A program made the translations under genes and the position numbers. DNA of 64,000 nt from Candidatus Latescibacterota bacterium. GTDB taxonomy: Bacteria; Latescibacterota; UBA2968; UBA8231. Below are positions 113-52,066 of this stretch, piece after piece (position 1 is the first letter of the stretch; each line of letters opens with the position of its first letter). The stretch lies in NCBI GenBank assembly GCA_022827835.1, contig JAJEIO010000029.1:124001-188000 (forward strand), in the 5' to 3' direction. Below the pieces are notes generated by a model. The model was not told where the DNA came from, ran no database searches, and saw nothing but the letters and a program-made list of their open reading frames with translations.

Positions 113-2155
113 TTAGTAGGCGATGCCCAAGGGGCGGAGTTGAGGATCGGCAGCAAATTCCGAACGCAGGTTTAAGGTCATCAGGTAGAGGCCGGGCGGC
201 AGCCACTGACCTGTTTCAGCGCGGCCATCCCAGCGCAAGCTCTGCGGGCCCGCGTTCTGCAATCCGGCCTCGACGAGGGCCACGCGCCGCCCGTCGAGGC
301 TATAGACCTCGAGGACGACGGGGACGGCTTCGGGCAGGCGGAACAGCGAATAGGCCACGTGTAATTCGTCGTTGATGCCGTCGCCGTTGGGTGTAAAGAC
401 CGAAGAGGAAAAAGTCAAGTTCTGGATGAAGGCGGTTGTCTGCCCAGTGGTACCGAGGACGCGCAGGCTGTTGGTCGAGAGGGCCTCGCCGACATCGGCA
501 CCGACTACGGGTTGCGGCAGGATGTCGCGTTCGCTGTCTAGAACCTCGCTCTGGAAGGTAGTGGCGAATTCGAATATCTCCGTGCCAAAGACAATGCGGA
601 TTGGCGGATTATTGGTGCGGGTGATGCGCTCGGGCAGACGGATGAGCAGGCCCTCGGGCTCTTGGGTGACCTCGGCGGGCGCAGTTTCCGTGCGGCCCTC
701 GCCTAGTTGCAGGCTTTTGAGTTCGGTTTGGTGCCCCGTGCGAATGCGCAATAGGTCGAAGCCGGGTGCATTAACCGCTTCGAAATCGGCTTGGAGATCA
801 TAGACGAATTCTATTGCTTCGCCGAGGGGGACTTGGGTGATCCCGCTGGCGGGCTGCGGATCGTCTAGGGGAGCCACTTCGCCGCGCACGTTGGCGGCCA
901 ACAGCGGGGCGGTTTCGAGCCACAGCGAGTCGAGGCGCACGAAGTCGTCAAAGGAATCGCTTTCCATGGTGACGCGGAACTGCAAATGGGTGCCGTTGCG
1001 CAGGTTAATTGGTTGGCCCGATTCGACGAAAGGTGCCGACCAGAAAGTCCAATTATCCGAATCGTAGCCGATGGACGCACGGACGCCGGGTTTGGGCTGG
1101 CGTTCGGTTAGGTCAGCCATGGCGTGGATGCGCACGAAGCGGGTGCGCAGTGCGTTTTCGTAGTGGTCGCGCGAGACTACGCGCTCCAGCCCGGTGTCCA
1201 TGTACTCGTGATAGACGGCCGGATCGTCGTCTAGGCCGGTGCGGATTTCAATCTTGATCTGAGCCGCTGCATCGGGAGTTTTCACCGGTGTTCCATCGAT
1301 CATGCGGAATTTTGTCGTCTGCCAGAACAGCCGCCCGAAATTCACGGGTTCGCCGAGGTCGGTTATCTTGGTCTTGTATATGGCCCGTTGCGGCACGCCT
1401 TGGGCGAAGAGTTGGAACTCGCTGATCGAGCCGATCAAGGCGAAGGCAACCAAGGCGTTGGCCTCGGTTAGGACTAGGCGGTCTTCGTCGAGGAGCGAAA
1501 GTCGCCGTTGGTAGCGGAAAAAGCGCAGATACTGGCGGTTGAAGTCGATGCGGACCTGCGGGGTGAAATTGTTGTCAACATCGGCGATGACGGTGGAGAG
1601 TGGGTTGACATTGCCTTCGAGTACTGGGGGTTCGGGCGCGACTGAGGCGGTTACCTGAAAAGCGGGAATGAAGTCCGTTTCCAGCGGGGTCCCGTCGGAG
1701 CGGAAACCCTCGCTGGGCGGGATAAAGCCGAAGGCCACCGCTGGCACCGACACGGCCAAATCCATGGTGAAGGTTTCTTTTTCGACGAGGTCGGCTTTGG
1801 GCGGATTATAGGTGGTAGGGTTGCCGTCAATGAGCCAGGAGCCGTTTTCCGATGGGTCGGGTATGCCGTTGTTCCACTTCCACATCCTCGGCGTTTCGCC
1901 GTCTAGGTAGTCGAAGATGCGGTCGCTGGGGTCGCGCCAGAAAGCCCAGTTGTCGATATGGGAAAAAACCGTTTCGTCCAGCGTGAAGTACGTGGGCTGA
2001 ATGGCACCAGGAGTAGTGGCGAAATCGACGAAGAGGCGAGTAGTATCGTTTTCACTCCAGGATAGGCCGCTGCCGCCTAGTTGCCAGTGGGAAATCTGGG
2101 AGGTGGCACTTTGCGCTAAAATTAGGGTGAACAGGATGATTGTGGCACGGCGCAT
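113..2155 (-). CDS. Secreted protein A, copy 1, with TPNGDG/FlgD-type C-terminal domain
   Basis: 680 aa. Residues 1-20 form a signal peptide ending SATSQ. The N-terminal half has a discoidin-like jelly-roll feel (an IDGNPTTYNPP stretch, then FTMDLAVSVPAVAFGF). The middle holds strands shared with copies 2 and 3 (GVRASIGYDSDNWTFW, then RLDSLWLETAPLLAANV). From about residue 587 there is a TPNGDGIND motif and a FlgD-like Ig fold (LEVYSLDGRR, LRWDGRAETGQ, LPPGLYLMTL). The last residues are PLGIAY. Such C-terminal domains are typical of surface-exported FCB proteins; the route is inference. The Shine-Dalgarno GGAAGGAG lies in a small hairpin just before the ATG. No enzymatic motif was recognised, so a structural or carbohydrate-binding surface role is only a guess. 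Confidence 0.85.
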   Translation of the reverse strand: MRRATIILFTLILAQSATSQISHWQLGGSGLSWSENDTTRLFVDFATTPGAIQPTYFTLDETVFSHIDNWAFWRDPSDRIFDYLDGETPRMWKWNNGIPDPSENGSWLIDGNPTTYNPPKADLVEKETFTMDLAVSVPAVAFGFIPPSEGFRSDGTPLETDFIPAFQVTASVAPEPPVLEGNVNPLSTVIADVDNNFTPQVRIDFNRQYLRFFRYQRRLSLLDEDRLVLTEANALVAFALIGSISEFQLFAQGVPQRAIYKTKITDLGEPVNFGRLFWQTTKFRMIDGTPVKTPDAAAQIKIEIRTGLDDDPAVYHEYMDTGLERVVSRDHYENALRTRFVRIHAMADLTERQPKPGVRASIGYDSDNWTFWSAPFVESGQPINLRNGTHLQFRVTMESDSFDDFVRLDSLWLETAPLLAANVRGEVAPLDDPQPASGITQVPLGEAIEFVYDLQADFEAVNAPGFDLLRIRTGHQTELKSLQLGEGRTETAPAEVTQEPEGLLIRLPERITRTNNPPIRIVFGTEIFEFATTFQSEVLDSERDILPQPVVGADVGEALSTNSLRVLGTTGQTTAFIQNLTFSSSVFTPNGDGINDELHVAYSLFRLPEAVPVVLEVYSLDGRRVALVEAGLQNAGPQSLRWDGRAETGQWLPPGLYLMTLNLRSEFAADPQLRPLGIAY

Positions 2156-13281: not shown

Positions 13282-13310
13282 TTGCATATATTCCTTTGAT
13301 GGAATATATT
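13282..13310 (+). promoter_or_regulatory. HigBA-type promoter with palindromic operator
   Basis: TTGCAT (13282-13287), a 17-nt spacer and TATATT (13305-13310) form a promoter-like pair. The perfect inverted repeat ATATATTCC-TTTGAT-GGAATATAT (13286-13309) fills the spacer. This is the expected place for autorepression by the HTH antitoxin. The start of transcription would be near 13317, leaving an almost leaderless mRNA for the ATG at 13321. Confidence 0.65.
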
Positions 13311-13320
13311 GATTGTTGAA

Positions 13321-13683
13321 ATGACTTGGGATGCTGAATATACGAACGAATTTGGCGAATGGTGGGATGGACTTTCAGAGAGCGAGCAGGACGATATTAC
13401 CGCCATAGTTGAGCTGCTCTTGGAGCACGGCCCTCACCTGCCGCATCCTTATTCATCGGGTATTCAGAATTCACGTTACGGACATATGCGCGAACTTAGG
13501 GTGCAAAGCGGCGGTAGGCCGATCCGCGTCTTCTATGCCTTTGATCCGAGACGAGTAGCAATCTTATTGAGCGGGGGCGACAAGACAGGCAATGACCGGT
13601 TTTACGATCAGTACGTGATGATGGCTGATAAACTTTACGATGAGCATCTTGAAACCTTGCAAAAGGAAGGATTGATCCCATGA
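13321..13683 (+). CDS. RelE/ParE-superfamily toxin, HigB/Gp49-like
   Basis: 120 aa from ATG 13321. It matches the phage-derived Gp49/HigB-type toxins: EYTNEFGEWWDGLSESEQDD at the N-terminus, then MRELRVQSGGRPIRVFYAFD and RRVAILLSGGDKTGNDRFYD. Such proteins are ribosome-dependent mRNA endonucleases. A TTG at 13309 would extend it by 4 residues, but that codon lies within the predicted -10 box, so 13321 is preferred. The gene ends ATGA-overlapped with the antitoxin gene. Confidence 0.85.
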   Translation: MTWDAEYTNEFGEWWDGLSESEQDDITAIVELLLEHGPHLPHPYSSGIQNSRYGHMRELRVQSGGRPIRVFYAFDPRRVAILLSGGDKTGNDRFYDQYVMMADKLYDEHLETLQKEGLIP

Positions 13684-14012
13684 GCGGTCGCCGTCCCTTT
13701 AATGAGTTGACCAAAGACTTCACGCCGGAGCGCCGTCAGCGCATTGAGGCGAAAAAGGCCGAGTTGCGGGCCGCCATGCCGCTGCACGAGCTACGGCAGG
13801 CACAGGTTATGACCCAGAAGGCACTGAGCGAGATCTTGGCGGTGAACCAACCCGCCATCGCCAAGATGGAACGGCGGACGGATATGTACGTCTCGACTCT
13901 GCGCTCTTACATTGAAGCACTGGGCGGACGGCTGAAGATCGTCGCCGAATTTCCGGAAGGCGAAGTTGCAATAACCAACTTCTCGGACGCGGACAACGAC
14001 AAAAGCCTTTAG
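13680..14012 (+). CDS. HTH (Xre-type) antitoxin, HigA-like
   Basis: 110 aa. A helix-turn-helix spans about residues 38-75 (MTQKALSEILAVNQPAIAKM), followed by YVSTLRSYIEALGGRLKIVA, typical of antitoxins paired with Gp49-type toxins. The ATG overlaps the toxin stop (ATGA) and has a good AAGGAAGG ribosome site. It should neutralise the toxin and repress the operon through the palindrome upstream (inferred from the family). Confidence 0.85.
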   Translation: MSGRRPFNELTKDFTPERRQRIEAKKAELRAAMPLHELRQAQVMTQKALSEILAVNQPAIAKMERRTDMYVSTLRSYIEALGGRLKIVAEFPEGEVAITNFSDADNDKSL

Positions 14013-42332: not shown

Positions 42333-42480
42333 CTACTTGAGCAAGAGGAGTCGCCGGGTTTGCTTGCCGCCGGGATAGTGCAGGCGCACGAGATAGACGC
42401 CTGTCGCTATGGTCGCGCTCCGCTGGTCGCGGCGTTCCAGTTCCCAAGATGTGCGCTCACGGGTGATGCGATCCACGCTG
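42333..42480 (-). pseudogene. Orphan 3' end of a T9SS-type sorting domain
   Basis: A minus-strand frame ending at TAG (42333-42335) reads ERRDQRSATIATGVYLVRLH and then YPGGKQTRRLLLLK. This is the classic last part of a T9SS type A sorting domain (compare WDGRDERGHSLATGLYLARF and final KLILLR in the lamin-tail proteins). No matching upstream gene exists in this frame. The region is overlapped, in another frame, by the end of the AbiEi-like gene. It looks like the stump of a secreted-protein gene replaced by the cassette next to it. Confidence 0.6.
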
Positions 42481-43042
42481 GCATCAAGGGGCGCAACGCA
42501 GCGAGTTCGTCGAGATCTACAGGGGAGAGCTTGTCCTCGATCTCGCCCAAGTTCTCTTCAACCTCTTGCGGACCTAACCAAGCGAGGGCGCGAATGGCAT
42601 CGCCAGCCGGCCGGTGTGGAGCTACTAGCTGCCACTGAGGAGCATGGCGCAAATGCACTGTCAGTCTCCCGAGTTTCAATCGACGGCTGGGGCCAGAGGT
42701 CAGATACACCGACTGCACCGGCGTCTGAGTAGTGAGACCGAGGAAATTCGCCGACGCACCGCCACAGGGAACAATGGTCTCCCCCCACAGTTCCGCCAGC
42801 GATTCAATGACCTTCTCAACCGCAGGCGGACGTAGGCCGAAGCGAGTCTCTATGGGCCGAACATAGACTCCTTGACAAACCCGCATTAGTTGTCCACGAC
42901 GGGCGAGACGAGACAACGCTTGATGGACTGCTGACGTGCTTCCAAGATGAAGCAACGTCTTTGGGCACAATAGCGAACCCTCGGGCAACTCGGCGGCGCA
43001 TGTGACGATGTGCTGAGATAGGCTTAGCATGGTCTTATTCAT
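42407..43042 (-). CDS. AbiEi/DUF6088-like winged-helix protein (putative antitoxin)
   Basis: 211 aa. The N-terminus matches DUF6088/AbiEi-type antitoxin domains: CPKTLLHLGSTSAVHQALSR followed by LARRGQLMRVCQGVYVRPI, a winged-helix DNA-binding unit. The rest (VEKVIESLAELWGETIVPCG, SVYLTSGPSRRLKLGRLTVH) is also typical. The last about 25 residues run over the T9SS remnant in another frame and may not be native. It overlaps the preceding small gene by 8 nt. Family members are antitoxins of type IV abortive-infection systems; no AbiEii-type toxin is adjacent. Confidence 0.7.
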   Translation of the reverse strand: MNKTMLSLSQHIVTCAAELPEGSLLCPKTLLHLGSTSAVHQALSRLARRGQLMRVCQGVYVRPIETRFGLRPPAVEKVIESLAELWGETIVPCGGASANFLGLTTQTPVQSVYLTSGPSRRLKLGRLTVHLRHAPQWQLVAPHRPAGDAIRALAWLGPQEVEENLGEIEDKLSPVDLDELAALRPLMPAWIASPVSAHLGNWNAATSGARP

Positions 43043-43250
43043 TGGGATTTACGCCTTCGCAATCGGCTTGGATCGCTTCAGCCATCCTGTCTAGGTCTTC
43101 TCTATCTATTGTTCCTGCAAAGCGTAGCAGAGCCTTGCCGGGTATGCCTTTCATCTCGGACTTTGCGAACTCCACTTGTTGACCTTTTCTCAATTTATAA
43201 ATCTCATCGAGAATTTCTTGCTCTACAGAAGTGCCTCGACCTTCTCGCAT
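43035..43250 (-). CDS. Small hypothetical protein of the three-gene cassette
   Basis: 71 aa (MREGRGTSVEQEILDEIYKL at the start, ALLRFAGTIDREDLDRMAEA near the end). A strong AGGAAGG site precedes the ATG, although that start lies 28 nt inside the upstream gene. The C-terminal pattern (LxxxAGTIxxEDLxxMxxAI) recalls the tails of small antitoxin-like proteins, a weak inference. The stop overlaps the AbiEi-like start. Confidence 0.6.
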   Translation of the reverse strand: MREGRGTSVEQEILDEIYKLRKGQQVEFAKSEMKGIPGKALLRFAGTIDREDLDRMAEAIQADCEGVNPNE

Positions 43251-44035
43251 AATGCCTTCCTGTTAGCGTCGATCTTGTCTGGCCGGACCTGTTTCGACAG
43301 GTCACATCGTTCCTTCCTGTCTAGAAAGTACAGAACACGCTCCTTATTCGCGCCAGACGGATGTGGTATCCCGCTCAGTACGCGACTACTATCCACAACC
43401 CCTTGACGAACCGCAAATTCCAGTGCCTTCGTAGCGTGTTCGCCAAGGGTAACCCACAAGACCTCGGGATCAAGTTCTCTTATCTCCTCAAACAAGTAAC
43501 GCGACAGGTAACTCTTCAGGAGCGTGTTTGTTTCGAAAGAAGGAGATCCATTGTACGGTTTTCCTTCCTTGAAGGTCGGGTAACGGATCACACTGGTCGT
43601 ATGAATCAAATGTCTTCCCTTCTCTTCAAAAAGCTCTGAACAACTCCCAAGCTCCAGTACGCGTTGTAGCCCGATGTGGTCTAGCATGTCGGTCAGTGGT
43701 TCTCGAAGCTCGGCAAAGCCGCCTTTCTTTTTCGCAGCCTCGCACGCCGCCGCGACACTGCCACAGCGTTCCAGTATGCGCCTAGCCTCACCTAGGGCAG
43801 CCACTGCTTGTGTCTTTCCAGGTGTGATTCCCACGATAGCAATCTTGGCATCGCGATTCAGATAGTCGAACGGCGCGTAATAGATCTTCAAGTTGCCCTT
43901 TTCTTTTAAAAGAAGCGACTCAGGAAGCCTATGTTCGTCTTGGGAGAAGGATATGATTTGCCTGATGTAATGCTCAAATAACGAGTACATGCTCTTTTCT
44001 TTAATGACTTTTTGGCTGGTGATCGGGTGTATCAT
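43223..44035 (-). CDS. Uracil-DNA glycosylase-fold family protein
   Basis: 270 aa from ATG 44035, with an AAGGAG site 8-9 nt before. Uracil-DNA-glycosylase superfamily motifs are visible: IAIVGITPGKTQAVAALGEA (motif I-like) and RVLSGIPHPSGANKERVLYF (the distal HPSGAN motif). The middle includes HTTSVIRYPTFKEGKPYNGS and DPEVLWVTLGEHATKALEFA. It may remove or sense modified bases, or only bind DNA. First gene of an overlapping three-gene set whose GC is lower than that of the flanking housekeeping genes. Confidence 0.75.
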   Translation of the reverse strand: MIHPITSQKVIKEKSMYSLFEHYIRQIISFSQDEHRLPESLLLKEKGNLKIYYAPFDYLNRDAKIAIVGITPGKTQAVAALGEARRILERCGSVAAACEAAKKKGGFAELREPLTDMLDHIGLQRVLELGSCSELFEEKGRHLIHTTSVIRYPTFKEGKPYNGSPSFETNTLLKSYLSRYLFEEIRELDPEVLWVTLGEHATKALEFAVRQGVVDSSRVLSGIPHPSGANKERVLYFLDRKERCDLSKQVRPDKIDANRKALCEKVEALL

Positions 44036-44062
44036 AGGTAGGTCTCCTTCCACCCGGCAGCA

Positions 44063-45274: not shown

Positions 45275-45437
45275 GTTCTTTTTTCTCTAGTTCGTGCCAA
45301 TTCTCGCTTGAGATAGGCAACCTTAGCAAGACTAATCTTGAGCGTCATTATAATTTGCACAATGCCTTGACAGAGCAGCAAAAAAAGGTTCTTCATTTTC
45401 CCTATGCGTTCATACTTAACCAAGAAGGTCTGACTAT

Positions 45438-47105: not shown

Positions 47106-47831
47106 CTAATCCCAACTTGGGATCGGGGTCTGCAGTGGATCGTCGATCCAGAGAAAGCGCCCGTTGACGTCGCTCTCGATGATGTCGAGCACGAGCTTGG
47201 CCGCCTTTTCCGGCGGATCCCCACCCGTTTGCTCCACCCACGCCACCCAGTCGTGGTAGCCGCGCTCGCTGACGGTGTCCATCTTGTCGCGGATATCCGC
47301 CCACATCGCGGTCTTGACGTCGCCGGGATGGATGACGTTCGCCGTGACGCCGGTCCCCTCTACCTCGGCGGCGAGGTGACGGGTGAACTGGTTGAGCGCG
47401 ACCTTGGCCGTGCCGTAGGCGCTGTTCAGTCGCCCGGGTGTGTGCAGCGACGCCGCAGACGAAAGGTTCACGATCCGGCCCCAGCCCGCGTCCAGCATTC
47501 CGCTTAGGAACGCGCGAGATACGAGATAGGGCCCCACCGCATCAATCATGAGCGTCTCGACCCATTCTTCGGGGTCGCTGTCCTGTACAAGGGCGATTGG
47601 GCCGAAGATCCCAGCGGCATTGACGAGAACGGTGGGTCGGCCGAGCTCGGCTTCGACTGCGGTTTTGAGGCGGTCAACATCGGCCGGGTTTGAGACATCC
47701 GCGGTGAATTGCGCCGAGCGGCGCGCGACGGTTGCGACGGAGAGGCCGCGCGCCTCCAGCGCATCTGCGATTGCCCGTCCGACGCCGCGGCTGGCTCCGG
47801 TGACGACTGCGACGTGTCCTTCGAGGTTCAC
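47106..47831 (-). CDS. Short-chain dehydrogenase/reductase (SDR)
   Basis: 241 aa. The classical SDR layout: HVAVVTGASRGVGRAIADAL (TGxxxGxG), LVNAAGIFGP (NAG), IVNLSSAASLH and SAYGTAKVALNQFTRHLAAE (Ser-Tyr-Lys). It starts ATGA-overlapped with the phyH-like gene upstream, so they are translated together in the catabolic cluster. Substrate unknown; oxidation of an alcohol made by the PhyH enzyme is a reasonable guess. Confidence 0.88.
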   Translation of the reverse strand: MNLEGHVAVVTGASRGVGRAIADALEARGLSVATVARRSAQFTADVSNPADVDRLKTAVEAELGRPTVLVNAAGIFGPIALVQDSDPEEWVETLMIDAVGPYLVSRAFLSGMLDAGWGRIVNLSSAASLHTPGRLNSAYGTAKVALNQFTRHLAAEVEGTGVTANVIHPGDVKTAMWADIRDKMDTVSERGYHDWVAWVEQTGGDPPEKAAKLVLDIIESDVNGRFLWIDDPLQTPIPSWD

Positions 47832-48631
47832 GGTCCGGCCTCGGCGGGCACCATGGGATTGTCCGAGTCATTCAGGCGCTTCCGCTCACTGCCCCAGTTG
47901 GCGGCGCTGCCGTTCCAGTAGCGGGTGTCGGCGGGGCTGTACGAGAAGAGGTAGGACCAGCGCGGCTTGTCGGTGGTGTTGTCCGGGCCTCCGTGGACGG
48001 TGTAGCCGTGGTGCACGGTGCAGTCGCCCGGCAGGTAGTGGAAGGGCGGCGAGAGCTCCAGCACGGACGTCAAATTCGGGAACTGCTTGAGCAGGTCGCC
48101 TTGGTCGTCCTTGAACACCGAACCGAGCGGTCCTTCGCGATGGGAGCGACTGACGAATCGCATGGCCCCCATATCGGGTGTGACTTCCGCCAGCGCCAGC
48201 CAGAACTGGAGCTCGCCGACCCGGTCGGAGCCGTGCTCGGACGAGTCCTGGTGATAGGTGGACCCGGTTGCTCCGGGGGGCTTGTTTAGGAGAATATCCA
48301 CGCGGTAGCGGAGCGGAACATCTACTCCCTTGAGCCGCTTCCTGTTCACGAGGCGCGTTGCGTTTTGCGCCATGCGCTCGCTGAACATGAATGAGCGAAA
48401 CGGCTCGGTCTCTTGATTCAGCGCTAGGCCGGCGCGTGGATTGCCGTGGCCAACTTCTTGGGCGTTGTGATCGACCCACTCCTGCCCGACGCGCAAAAGC
48501 TGTGCGGCGAACTCCGGCGCAACGAGCCGCGGCATCATAACCCAGCCGTATTCGTGGTAGAAGGCGACTTCCTCGTCTGTGACTTCCCGGACGATGGTCT
48601 CGATCTCGCGCTCCGTCATTGCTTGTCCCAT
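47828..48631 (-). CDS. Phytanoyl-CoA dioxygenase (PhyH) family oxygenase, catabolic cluster
   Basis: 267 aa. Motifs: EVAFYHEYGWVMMPRLVAPE, the iron-binding STYHQDSSEHGSDR (HxD), GAMRFVSRSHREGPLGSVF and PGDCTVHHGYTVHGGPDNTT (distal His) with a following RWSYLFSY Arg. An AGGAG site precedes the ATG at 48631. It has its own promoter (48665-48699), overlapping the end of the isochorismatase-like gene. Likely hydroxylates the small molecule handled by this cluster. Confidence 0.86.
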   Translation of the reverse strand: MGQAMTEREIETIVREVTDEEVAFYHEYGWVMMPRLVAPEFAAQLLRVGQEWVDHNAQEVGHGNPRAGLALNQETEPFRSFMFSERMAQNATRLVNRKRLKGVDVPLRYRVDILLNKPPGATGSTYHQDSSEHGSDRVGELQFWLALAEVTPDMGAMRFVSRSHREGPLGSVFKDDQGDLLKQFPNLTSVLELSPPFHYLPGDCTVHHGYTVHGGPDNTTDKPRWSYLFSYSPADTRYWNGSAANWGSERKRLNDSDNPMVPAEAGP

Positions 48632-48664: not shown

Positions 48665-48699
48665 GGAACGATAAGAAGTCTTTCTGGACGCGTTGTCAA
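48665..48699 (-). promoter_or_regulatory. Promoter of the phyH-SDR pair, shared-motif copy 1
   Basis: Minus strand TTGACAACGC, then TCTTATCGTTCC, with TTGACA (48694-48699) and TCTTAT (48671-48676) 17 nt apart. The extended ends (ACGC after the -35, CGTTCC after the -10) are shared with the other two promoters of the cluster. It overlaps the stop of the isochorismatase-like gene. Confidence 0.75.
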
Positions 48700-49400
48700 G
48701 GGACGGCGGCCAGCGCGGAACAGGCCTGGACGAACTCCGCCGACGTGGAGGTGTAGCCCACCACGTGCTCGAAGTTCCGCAGCATGATCTTGCGCAACCA
48801 TCCCCCTTCCGGCAGGCTGTCGTCCACCGTATCGGGGTACTCGGCCGAGTGGGTGCAGTCCCGCAACATCACCACCCGGTAGTTGTGTTCCACCGCACCG
48901 GCACAGGTGAAGTAGAGGCAGGATCGTTGCGAAAATCCCACGGCGATCAGAGTCTTGATGCCGTGGCAGCGCAGGTGATAGTCGGTGTGGGTCTCGTGAA
49001 AACCCGACCACTCCCGCTTGGGAAAGTCCGGCTCGTGGGCGAGGGGCTGGATCGACGGCGAGTAGTTCGGCTGTACCGGGCTGCGCTCCGGCGCTGGACG
49101 GTCGGCGGCATCTTCGCTGCCCCAGCGGGTGCCGTGGATTTCGCGCTTGATACTGCCCGGTTCGTCGCACAGGGAGAAGTCGTTGTGGATGAAGAACACG
49201 TGCAGGCCGACGGCGCGGGCGGCCTTCAGCGCGGGCGCAATCCCCTCCTCGACGTAGGGATTCCCCTCGCCGCAGTCCGAATCCACGATCATGAAGGCGG
49301 TGGTCTCCAGCGGCAGGTCGAGGTCGTCGAAACGATTTCCGTCGGGATTGTCGGGGCCGTAGCCGGAATACCATCTTACTGGAAGTTGAATCGTCGCCAT
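48696..49400 (-). CDS. Isochorismatase-family cysteine hydrolase
   Basis: 234 aa. The isochorismatase/nicotinamidase-type triad is suggested by AFMIVDSDCGEGNP (Asp), FPKREWSGFHETHTD (Lys) and AVGFSQRSCLYFTCAGAVEH (nucleophilic Cys). Family members hydrolyse amides such as carbamoyl compounds. The AAGGAG site is 7 nt before the ATG. It lies between the aminotransferase and the phyH-like gene; amide release ahead of transamination would fit, as inference. Another, longer frame overlaps here but shows no conserved sequence. Confidence 0.85.
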   Translation of the reverse strand: MATIQLPVRWYSGYGPDNPDGNRFDDLDLPLETTAFMIVDSDCGEGNPYVEEGIAPALKAARAVGLHVFFIHNDFSLCDEPGSIKREIHGTRWGSEDAADRPAPERSPVQPNYSPSIQPLAHEPDFPKREWSGFHETHTDYHLRCHGIKTLIAVGFSQRSCLYFTCAGAVEHNYRVVMLRDCTHSAEYPDTVDDSLPEGGWLRKIMLRNFEHVVGYTSTSAEFVQACSALAAVP

Positions 49401-49441
49401 TTTGCATCTCCTTATTCAGGGGAAATCTACGCAACCGACGA

Positions 49442-50764
49442 TTAGACCTGATCGAGTGCGTCCTTGAGGCTTTTCTCGACGAGGTCGAAGAGTTCGTCAA
49501 CTTGGGGCTTGTCGATGATGAGGGCGGGCACGACGGCGAACCAACTTGGATCAACCCGCAGGATGACTCCGTTCTGCAGCGCCGTTTTCTTGAGCGCCCT
49601 GCCCAGTTCCGGGAACGGCTCAAGGCTCGACGTATCCTTCACCAGTTCAACTCCCCTCAGCAACCCCTTGCCCCGCACCTCCCGCACGACGCCGAGCGAT
49701 TTTAGGCCTTCGAGCTTGGCGGCGAGGTAGAAGCCCATCTCGCGGGCATGGGTATCGAGGCCGCGCTCCACGATCTCGTCCACTACAGCGATGCCGACCG
49801 CGCAGGCCAGTGGATGGCCCGCGTAGGTGTGACCGTGGGCGAAGTTCTCGCCTTGCTCGTAGAAGTACTCCCCCATCCCCTCGCGAGCCATCAGCGCTCC
49901 GAGGGGAATGGCACCACTCGACAGCCCTTTGCTGCCGCAGATGATGTCGGGCGTCACTCCGAAGGTGTGAGCGGCAAACATCGCTCCTGTGCGACCGAAG
50001 CCGGTGATGATCTCGTCGTAGATGAGCACGACGTTGTGGCGGTCGCAGGTGTCGCGGATGAGCTGGAAGTACTCGTCTGTGGGCGTGATGATACCCCCCG
50101 TGTTCGACACCGGTTCGAGGATGATGCCGGCCACTGTCGCCGGATCTTCGCTGATGATGACATCCTCGAACTGCTGTGCCGCGAACCGGTTTGCCTCGTC
50201 CCAGTCGCCGAAGCGGTCGCGATAGTGCGTTGGGGGGAATACTTTGAGGAAGCCCGGTGGGGCTGGCTCGAATGGGGTTTTGCGCTCTCCCGTGCCGCTG
50301 GCCGCCATGGCTCCCATGGTGGCACCGTGGTAGGCTTGGTAGCGGCTGATGAACTTGTACTTGTGCGGATGGCCCGATTGCTTGAAATACTGGCGCGTAA
50401 ACTTGATCGCCGCCTCCATAGACTCCGAGCCGCCGCTGAAAGCCTTCACGTAGTTGAGGTCGTCGGGCGTGACGCTGCCGAGCTTTTCGACGAAGTCAAG
50501 CGTCACATCGGCCGTGCCGTGCATGGGCGGCGCGAAGGCGAGCTTGTCCCATTGGGCCCGCATGGCCTCTTCGACGCGCGGATGGCGATGGCCGAGCAGG
50601 GTTGAGTAGATGCCGCTGATGCCGTCGAAGTAGCGTTTCCCATCCGTGTCCCAGTAGTAGAGCCCTTCCGCCCGCGACACGATGAGCGGATTGTTCATGA
50701 ACTCGGCCGTCGATTGGTAGTCGAGGAAGGTTCTTCTGAGCAGTTTCTCTTGGCGTGCGTTCAC
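49442..50764 (-). CDS. Class III pyridoxal-phosphate aminotransferase
   Basis: 440 aa from GTG 50764 with a GAGGGAG site. Fold-type I class III motifs: NYVKAFSGGSESMEAAIKFT, ATMGAMAASGTGER, GIILEPVSNTGGIITPTDEY, VVLIYDEIITGFGRTGAMFA and ICGSKGLSSGAIPLGALMAR with the PLP-binding Lys. Such enzymes act on omega-amino groups (beta-alanine, 4-aminobutyrate, taurine and similar). First gene of the minus-strand catabolic transcript, directly under promoter 50791-50825. Confidence 0.92.
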   Translation of the reverse strand: MNARQEKLLRRTFLDYQSTAEFMNNPLIVSRAEGLYYWDTDGKRYFDGISGIYSTLLGHRHPRVEEAMRAQWDKLAFAPPMHGTADVTLDFVEKLGSVTPDDLNYVKAFSGGSESMEAAIKFTRQYFKQSGHPHKYKFISRYQAYHGATMGAMAASGTGERKTPFEPAPPGFLKVFPPTHYRDRFGDWDEANRFAAQQFEDVIISEDPATVAGIILEPVSNTGGIITPTDEYFQLIRDTCDRHNVVLIYDEIITGFGRTGAMFAAHTFGVTPDIICGSKGLSSGAIPLGALMAREGMGEYFYEQGENFAHGHTYAGHPLACAVGIAVVDEIVERGLDTHAREMGFYLAAKLEGLKSLGVVREVRGKGLLRGVELVKDTSSLEPFPELGRALKKTALQNGVILRVDPSWFAVVPALIIDKPQVDELFDLVEKSLKDALDQV

Positions 50765-50790
50765 GTTTATCGCTCCCTCTGTACGGATTC

Positions 50791-50825
50791 GGAACGATAA
50801 GAAGCCTTTGTGGAGGCGTTGTCAA
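50791..50825 (-). promoter_or_regulatory. Promoter of the aminotransferase unit, shared-motif copy 2
   Basis: Minus strand TTGACA (50820-50825), 17-nt spacer, TCTTAT (50797-50802) and then CGTTCC. The arm GCGTTGTCAA (50816-50825) forms a perfect inverted repeat with TTGACAACGC (50835-50844) of the divergent promoter, with a 9-nt spacer. Confidence 0.8.
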
Positions 50826-50834
50826 GGGGCCGTA

Positions 50835-50869
50835 TTGACAACGCATCGGTAAGGCCCCTTTATCGTTCC
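50835..50869 (+). promoter_or_regulatory. Promoter of the Gfo/Idh/MocA gene, shared-motif copy 3
   Basis: TTGACA (50835-50840), 17-nt spacer, CTTTAT (50858-50863) and CGTTCC (50864-50869). It has the same extended motif and spacing as copies 1 and 2 but on the plus strand, back to back with copy 2. Confidence 0.78.
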
Positions 50870-50920: not shown

Positions 50921-52066
50921 ATGATGAACCAGAAGACTGATTCAGAACCGACAGTGGAGGATGTCCCGATCCAGGGTTTTGAGAAGGCAGTTACCGACTA
51001 CGAGGCGTCGAAGGACTGGCAACCCGTGTCCGACCGGGTGATTCGCGTGGGTATCGCCGGATATGGCGTGTGCAATTTTGGCGCGGCCTTCCACTTCCAG
51101 GACCACCCGAATGTGACCGTCGCCGCGGTGGCTGAACTGGACCCCGACAAGCGAGCCGAACTGGCCAGAGCGTGCCGCTGTGCGACCGCCTATGCCTCGT
51201 GCGAAGAGTTGATCGAGGACGACTCGCTCGAGGCCGTTTTCGTTGCCACCGACGCCCCGAGTCACGCCCGGCTGGCCATTGCCGCGCTCAAAGCTGGCAA
51301 ACACGTTGCATCGGCCGTGCCCGCCGTGTGGGGCTCACTGGAGGATGCGGATGCGCTTTTCGCCGCGGCCAAGACCGCCGACCGCAGCTACATGATGTTC
51401 GAAACCTCGTACTTCCACGAAGATCTCTATACCATGCGGGAGTTATACCGAACTGGCGCGCTGGGAAAAGTCGTTTACGCAGAGGGTGAATACTGGCACT
51501 ACTTCTCGACGCCGCTGGCCGCGCACGAGGGCTGGCGCACTGGGGCTCCCCCGCAATGGTATCCCACGCACTCCAATGCCTACTACATGGGCGTCACCGG
51601 CGGGAGCTTCACCGAGGTCTCCTGCATGGGCGTGCCTAGCAGCGTCGATCATCTGAAGGCTGCAAACAACCGCTACGGCAACCCGTTTGGCACTGAAATC
51701 GCGCTATTTCGCACTAGCGATGGCGGCATGGCGCGGATGGGGGTTAGCTGGGACACGCCGGGAGTCGGCGGGGAGACGGGCCGGATTCGCACGGAGAAGG
51801 GGACTTTCTACGGCAAGTTCCAGAATGGCGGGCAGGACTCTGTGCCAATATTCAAGCGTCCACCTCTTCCTCCGGGGGTGGATGCCGGGGGGCACGGCGG
51901 CTCTCACGGCTACCTGATGTGCGAGTTCGTCGAGGCGATCTTGCTGGACCGCACGCCCCTCATCGACGTGGCCCAAGCGCTTAACATGACGGTCAGCGGC
52001 ATCGTCGCTCACGAATCGGCGCTGAAGGACGGCGAACTGCTGAAGATCCCGCAGTACAGCCTGTGA
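50921..52066 (+). CDS. Gfo/Idh/MocA-family oxidoreductase
   Basis: 381 aa (ATG 50921 or, with better spacing from the AAAGGGGG site, ATG 50924). Rossmann domain: RVIRVGIAGYGVCNFGAAFH and DSLEAVFVATDAPSHARLAI; the usual EKP motif after HV is ASAVPAVWGS. The substrate-binding half includes RTGALGKVVYAEGEYWHYF and CEFVEAILLDRTPLIDVAQA. NAD(P)-dependent oxidation or reduction of a cyclic polyol or acid is the family role. It is divergent from, and coregulated with, the aminotransferase unit. Confidence 0.88.
   Translation: MMNQKTDSEPTVEDVPIQGFEKAVTDYEASKDWQPVSDRVIRVGIAGYGVCNFGAAFHFQDHPNVTVAAVAELDPDKRAELARACRCATAYASCEELIEDDSLEAVFVATDAPSHARLAIAALKAGKHVASAVPAVWGSLEDADALFAAAKTADRSYMMFETSYFHEDLYTMRELYRTGALGKVVYAEGEYWHYFSTPLAAHEGWRTGAPPQWYPTHSNAYYMGVTGGSFTEVSCMGVPSSVDHLKAANNRYGNPFGTEIALFRTSDGGMARMGVSWDTPGVGGETGRIRTEKGTFYGKFQNGGQDSVPIFKRPPLPPGVDAGGHGGSHGYLMCEFVEAILLDRTPLIDVAQALNMTVSGIVAHESALKDGELLKIPQYSL

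Follow-up and report, generated by a model that had tools for sequence, protein, structure and literature searches.

Within a 64,000-nt stretch of Latescibacterota DNA (hereafter, the window; contig JAJEIO010000029.1), three promoter-like sites in one metabolic gene cluster have bases in common beyond their -35 and -10 hexamers, which raises the question of whether these bases are binding sites of a shared regulator, as a sequence-only reading had proposed, or have another origin. The pattern TTGACAACGC-N19-CGTTCC has three exact matches in the window, and their positions and strands, as well as the putative -10 hexamers (TCTTAT twice and CTTTAT once), are exactly as claimed in that reading (Table 1). 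Two of the sites stand back to back, and the arms described for this divergent pair, GCGTTGTCAA and TTGACAACGC, are perfect inverted 10-nt sequences that flank exactly 9 nt; measured from TTGTCAA to TTGACAA, the gap is 9 nt in five genomes. Each copy would drive one unit, namely aminotransferase-isochorismatase, PhyH-SDR, and Gfo/Idh. The isochorismatase-family gene, whose TGA stop codon is contained in the -35 box of site 1, is an extra member of the aminotransferase unit that was absent from the initial list. Pfam assignments of the cluster genes are to broad families only, and no NCBIfam model matched these genes at cut-off. Elsewhere, the window contains a Gp49-like (DUF891) gene and, after it, an HTH_37 gene in the layout of a toxin-antitoxin pair (13309-14012, plus strand), and a gene for a DUF6088/AbiEi-antitoxin-like winged-helix protein that adjoins a uracil-DNA-glycosylase superfamily gene (42407-44053, minus strand).

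Table 1 Promoter-like sites and cluster genes, with positions in the window
Feature	Position	Strand	Description
Site 1	48665-48699	-	before PhyH-SDR; TTGACA 48699-48694, 17-nt spacer, TCTTAT 48676-48671, CGTTCC 48670-48665
Site 2	50791-50825	-	before aminotransferase; TTGACA 50825-50820, TCTTAT 50802-50797, CGTTCC 50796-50791
Site 3	50835-50869	+	inverted copy before Gfo/Idh; TTGACA 50835-50840, CTTTAT 50858-50863, CGTTCC 50864-50869
Back-to-back -35 regions	50816-50844		GCGTTGTCAA (50816-50825), 9 nt, TTGACAACGC (50835-50844)
PhyH-family dioxygenase gene	47828-48631	-	PF05721; first gene behind site 1
Short-chain dehydrogenase (SDR) gene	47106-47831	-	PF00106; 4-nt overlap with PhyH
Class III aminotransferase gene	49442-50764	-	PF00202; first gene behind site 2
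Isochorismatase-family hydrolase gene	48696-49400	-	PF00857; downstream of aminotransferase
Gfo/Idh/MocA-family oxidoreductase gene	50921-52066	+	PF01408; behind site 3; second ATG at 50924 is a possible start

To place the motif in its genome, pattern searches were run over the source genome (G000; 5.84 Mb in 64 contigs, estimated 94% complete with 8% contamination), and background statements refer to the window and to other stretches that total about 395 kb. The full pattern occurs three times in the 5.84 Mb without mismatch, never with one mismatch, and five times with two, so that the genome scan proposed earlier returned solely the three cluster sites at up to one mismatch. None of the five two-mismatch matches has TTAT in the place of the -10 (control pattern: 1), and in 100 shuffled versions of the window, three matches were never reached even when up to three mismatches were allowed (mean 0.55). 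Taken separately, TTATCGTTCC occurs five times genome-wide, three of them in the cluster (reversed control: seven), and TTGACAACGC occurs 25 times; outside the cluster, most copies of the latter are contained in long open frames, and two (in L089 and L092) are not covered by any. A common site is thus found before three units and, at up to one mismatch, is absent from unrelated genes, as in a regulon. A fourth candidate before a GH32 gene (45367-45401, plus strand; TTGACAGAGC...TTCTTCATTTTCC, two mismatches to a relaxed pattern) is present in the relative G009, and G004 and G010 have unrelated DNA at this place; we set it aside as unproven.

Among close relatives, the named records belong to Latescibacterota or 'Gemmatimonadetes' MAGs, and one short contig is part of a Bryobacterales MAG. 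All three sites occur at the same genes in G001 (C93), G010 (C38), and contig L047, with one or two bases changed at site 3 of G001 and L047. The last of these (JAJDZN010000003.1), filed under the Bryobacterales MAG, encodes the cluster at 94–97% protein identity and is probably a misbinned Latescibacterota contig. G009 keeps site 1, and its contig starts near the aminotransferase start. G004 retains the cluster genes despite damage to two of its three copies: site 1 reads TTGACAGAGC (ACGC to GAGC) and has a TT insertion, site 2 has a 1-nt insertion and a G to A change, and site 3 is nearly intact with one change in the -35 block. The gene content between the aminotransferase and PhyH genes also differs, since G001 (L037 7041-10432) has a Xan_ur_permease gene and a GHMP-kinase-like gene instead of the isochorismatase gene (window 48696-49400); the promoters remain through this swap, and homology resumes at CCCTTGACA of site 1. 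The aminotransferase-PhyH gap of G009 is of equal length and fits the G001 arrangement. The motif is absent in other family members, in which the aminotransferase is 67–75% identical, and none was found around the Gfo/Idh gene (about 80% identical) of the genus mates G006 and G008.

When the copies were compared with each other, similarity extended through their whole length. Sites 1 and 2 are identical at 38 of 41 positions, including the spacer, and spacer positions 12, 13, 18, and 22 are invariant across 16 copies from six genomes (consensus TTGACAACGCnTCnnTAAAGGCnnnTTATCGTTCC). At 16 of 23 spacer and leader positions, site 3 agrees with the consensus of sites 1 and 2 (P about 1.5e-5). Within one genome, sites 1 and 2 are 78% similar in the spacer and 80% in the leader, and the spacers of orthologous sites are 81–83% similar between species, whereas site 3 is more diverged from sites 1 and 2 (spacer 54–57%). 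As sites 1 and 2 are, in these parts outside the blocks, about as far apart as orthologs from different species, the identity of their blocks carries limited weight alone. A site tree, which had low support among sites 1 and 2, was used solely to separate site 3. The sites look like duplicates of one promoter, one of them inverted, rather than independent promoters with a common operator. Judging from these similarities, the simplest history would be that one promoter of roughly 45 bp, from the -35 region to the first transcribed bases, was copied twice within the cluster, with the inverted copy (site 3) older and the direct copies (sites 1 and 2) younger, and that duplication preceded the split of the sister species. 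Homology along the whole length of the copies weakens the argument that the extra bases point to a regulator, since duplication by itself would explain why these bases are common to the sites.

Constraint was assessed against fourfold-degenerate sites, which served as the neutral reference (186 of 601 variable in five genomes). In the -35 and -10 blocks (22 positions per site), variation is seen in 5 of 66 columns (p=2e-5), a count that is slightly flattering because the two indels of G004 were removed before columns were counted. The hexamers, with 0/36 variable columns, are clearly under selection. For the extensions beyond them, 5/30 columns vary when G004 is included (p=0.11), compared to 2/30 without it (versus 159/601, p=0.016) and 0/20 at sites 1 and 2 (versus 159/601 in four genomes, p=0.003); the two latter values are descriptive, as G004 was excluded after its damage had been seen. 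The extensions are therefore probably under selection in most species, though not securely so, and their constraint is weak. Spacer columns vary at the neutral level (14/39 versus 186/601, p=0.59). The claim of the sequence-only reading that the central spacer differs between the sites holds only in part, given the near-identity of sites 1 and 2 through the spacer and the four invariant spacer positions.

We consider a duplicated promoter with constrained blocks and three co-expressed units to be the best explanation (probability roughly 0.6). Selection would have kept the -35 block (TTGACAACGC) and the -10/+1 block (TTATCGTTCC) while the spacer drifted, which suggests that all three units are expressed together, under common conditions, and would form a mini-regulon limited to the cluster. 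Confined to the cluster, kept in sister species at the same three genes, and varying in its blocks below the neutral level, the motif is most naturally read as the mark of a small co-expressed set, and a set restricted to this cluster is likely. The earlier proposal of one small regulon survives to this extent, with the shared regulator that it invoked as a tentative addition. The common control may come from a transcription factor, from recognition by sigma, or merely from promoters of equal basal strength. Regulons that are local to one cluster and have a divergent control region are a general pattern in bacteria. The present cluster resembles them in having a promoter-proximal element that is common to several units and absent elsewhere in the genome, with two of the units divergent; it differs in that no cluster-linked regulator gene was found among the neighbours scanned and in that the shared element is a whole promoter, not a separate operator.

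Our reading could be refined by assuming that a dedicated transcription factor uses the extension bases as its operator and makes the three units one regulon, a possibility that we regard as tentative. Restriction of the motif to the cluster, the invariant extensions of sites 1 and 2 in four genomes, and the perfect inverted arms of the divergent pair are all consistent with an operator. However, site 1 has no dyad, the -35 and -10 blocks are not repeats of each other, the motif has no further targets, and the extensions are not significantly constrained with G004 included. The search for a regulator gene near the sites, recommended in the sequence-only reading, yielded no metabolic-type candidate among the neighbours scanned by Pfam (part of the window's proteins). 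A MerR-type long-spacer dyad was also considered and dropped, as position 11, which is needed for pairing, varies freely.

The converse possibility is plain local promoter copying, with the extra bases as leftover homology and no common regulation. Homology that continues through the spacer and leader, the near-identity of sites 1 and 2, and the tolerance of G004 for damage at two copies would all be expected under such copying, and for sites 1 and 2 it is hardest of all to dismiss. Against it, the blocks as a whole are conserved relative to neutral sites, and the older site 3 has an intact -10/+1 block in all five genomes despite its more diverged spacer; for the cluster overall, we therefore hold copying without common regulation to be the less probable account.

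A further alternative concerns the promoter class. Compared to sigma-70 promoters (TTGACA, 17 nt, TATAAT), the sites have an exact TTGACA, a 17-nt spacer at all three sites (within the 16–18 nt expected), a hexamer ending in T, and the right orientation and gene distance. They differ in the bases beyond both hexamers that are common to the sites and in their putative -10 elements: TCTTAT and CTTTAT do not have the customary A as second base, which makes the -10 assignment weak; a consensus promoter scan did not call any of the three hexamers. In Flavobacterium psychrophilum, the -7 box is reported to be TAnnTTTG (PMC9723704). The best register for such a Bacteroidota primary-sigma box, TATCGTTC, has TA and then a T-containing block close to where transcription would begin, but it matches only four of the six fixed bases, and its distance of 23 nt from TTG exceeds the TTG-N20-TA spacing that is enriched in our sample. 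Upstream of genes in the window and L106-L125, TAnnTTTG occurs 11 times in forward and 3 times in reverse orientation (0.40 versus 0.09 per kb in coding DNA), which suggests, albeit from small numbers, that this lineage has a Bacteroidota-like -7 box; apart from weak TTG/TAnnTTTG signals, de novo dyad counts in upstream regions revealed no clear motif.

It is rather unlikely that a particular sigma factor, or a primary sigma with lineage-specific box preferences, reads both blocks with no extra regulator. The two conserved blocks, which occupy the -35 and -10 places on either side of a drifting spacer of fixed length, have the layout of sigma recognition, and the forward bias of TAnnTTTG points the same way. 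However, TATCGTTC fits the box only in part, one would expect the targets of a special sigma factor to extend beyond one cluster, and the neighbourhood showed no sigma gene. Two other candidates were rejected: an opposite-strand ECF-type promoter (GGAAC...CGTT), whose elements are 21 nt apart and which points away from the genes, and a leader RNA, for which there was no Rfam hit and folds were unremarkable.

Given the general footprint size of RNA polymerase, simultaneous occupancy of sites 2 and 3 is unlikely with 9 bp between the divergent -35 boxes; the two sites probably cannot both hold polymerase at once. It is conceivable, if doubtful, that a Latescibacterota regulator or sigma factor reads a two-block promoter (TTGACAACG...TTATCGTTCC) with a regulon of one metabolic cluster, and that the back-to-back pair would act as a mutually exclusive switch between aminotransferase and Gfo/Idh.

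The idea that the motif is a general promoter variant of the lineage, which would place it before many unrelated housekeeping genes, is highly improbable: another intergenic TTGACAACGC (L092) does have TTGACA-17-TATACT and then TTTTCC before a selenoprotein-W-like gene, but no further match at up to one mismatch exists genome-wide, the two-mismatch extras resemble chance, and varied bases follow the -10 in promoter-like sites of 178 upstream regions (window plus about 395 kb). The L092 frame itself (about 1220-1450, minus strand; contig C56 of the source genome near 5.7 kb) encodes 77 residues and belongs to the Rdx family (selenoprotein W-like; PF10262, E 8e-22 when the TGA is read as Cys). 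This in-frame TGA occupies the second position of its CxxU motif, and a good TTGACA-17-TATACT promoter lies upstream.

A duplicated promoter with constrained blocks, our preferred reading, is an ordinary kind of gene control. It makes the aminotransferase, the isochorismatase-family hydrolase, the PhyH dioxygenase, the SDR, and the Gfo/Idh enzyme probable partners. Gene control in uncultured Latescibacterota seems to be little studied, and a narrowly framed literature search found no dedicated work on it. Clearly homologous promoters in several species, with constrained blocks set against a drifting spacer, provide a handle on the promoter architecture of this phylum.
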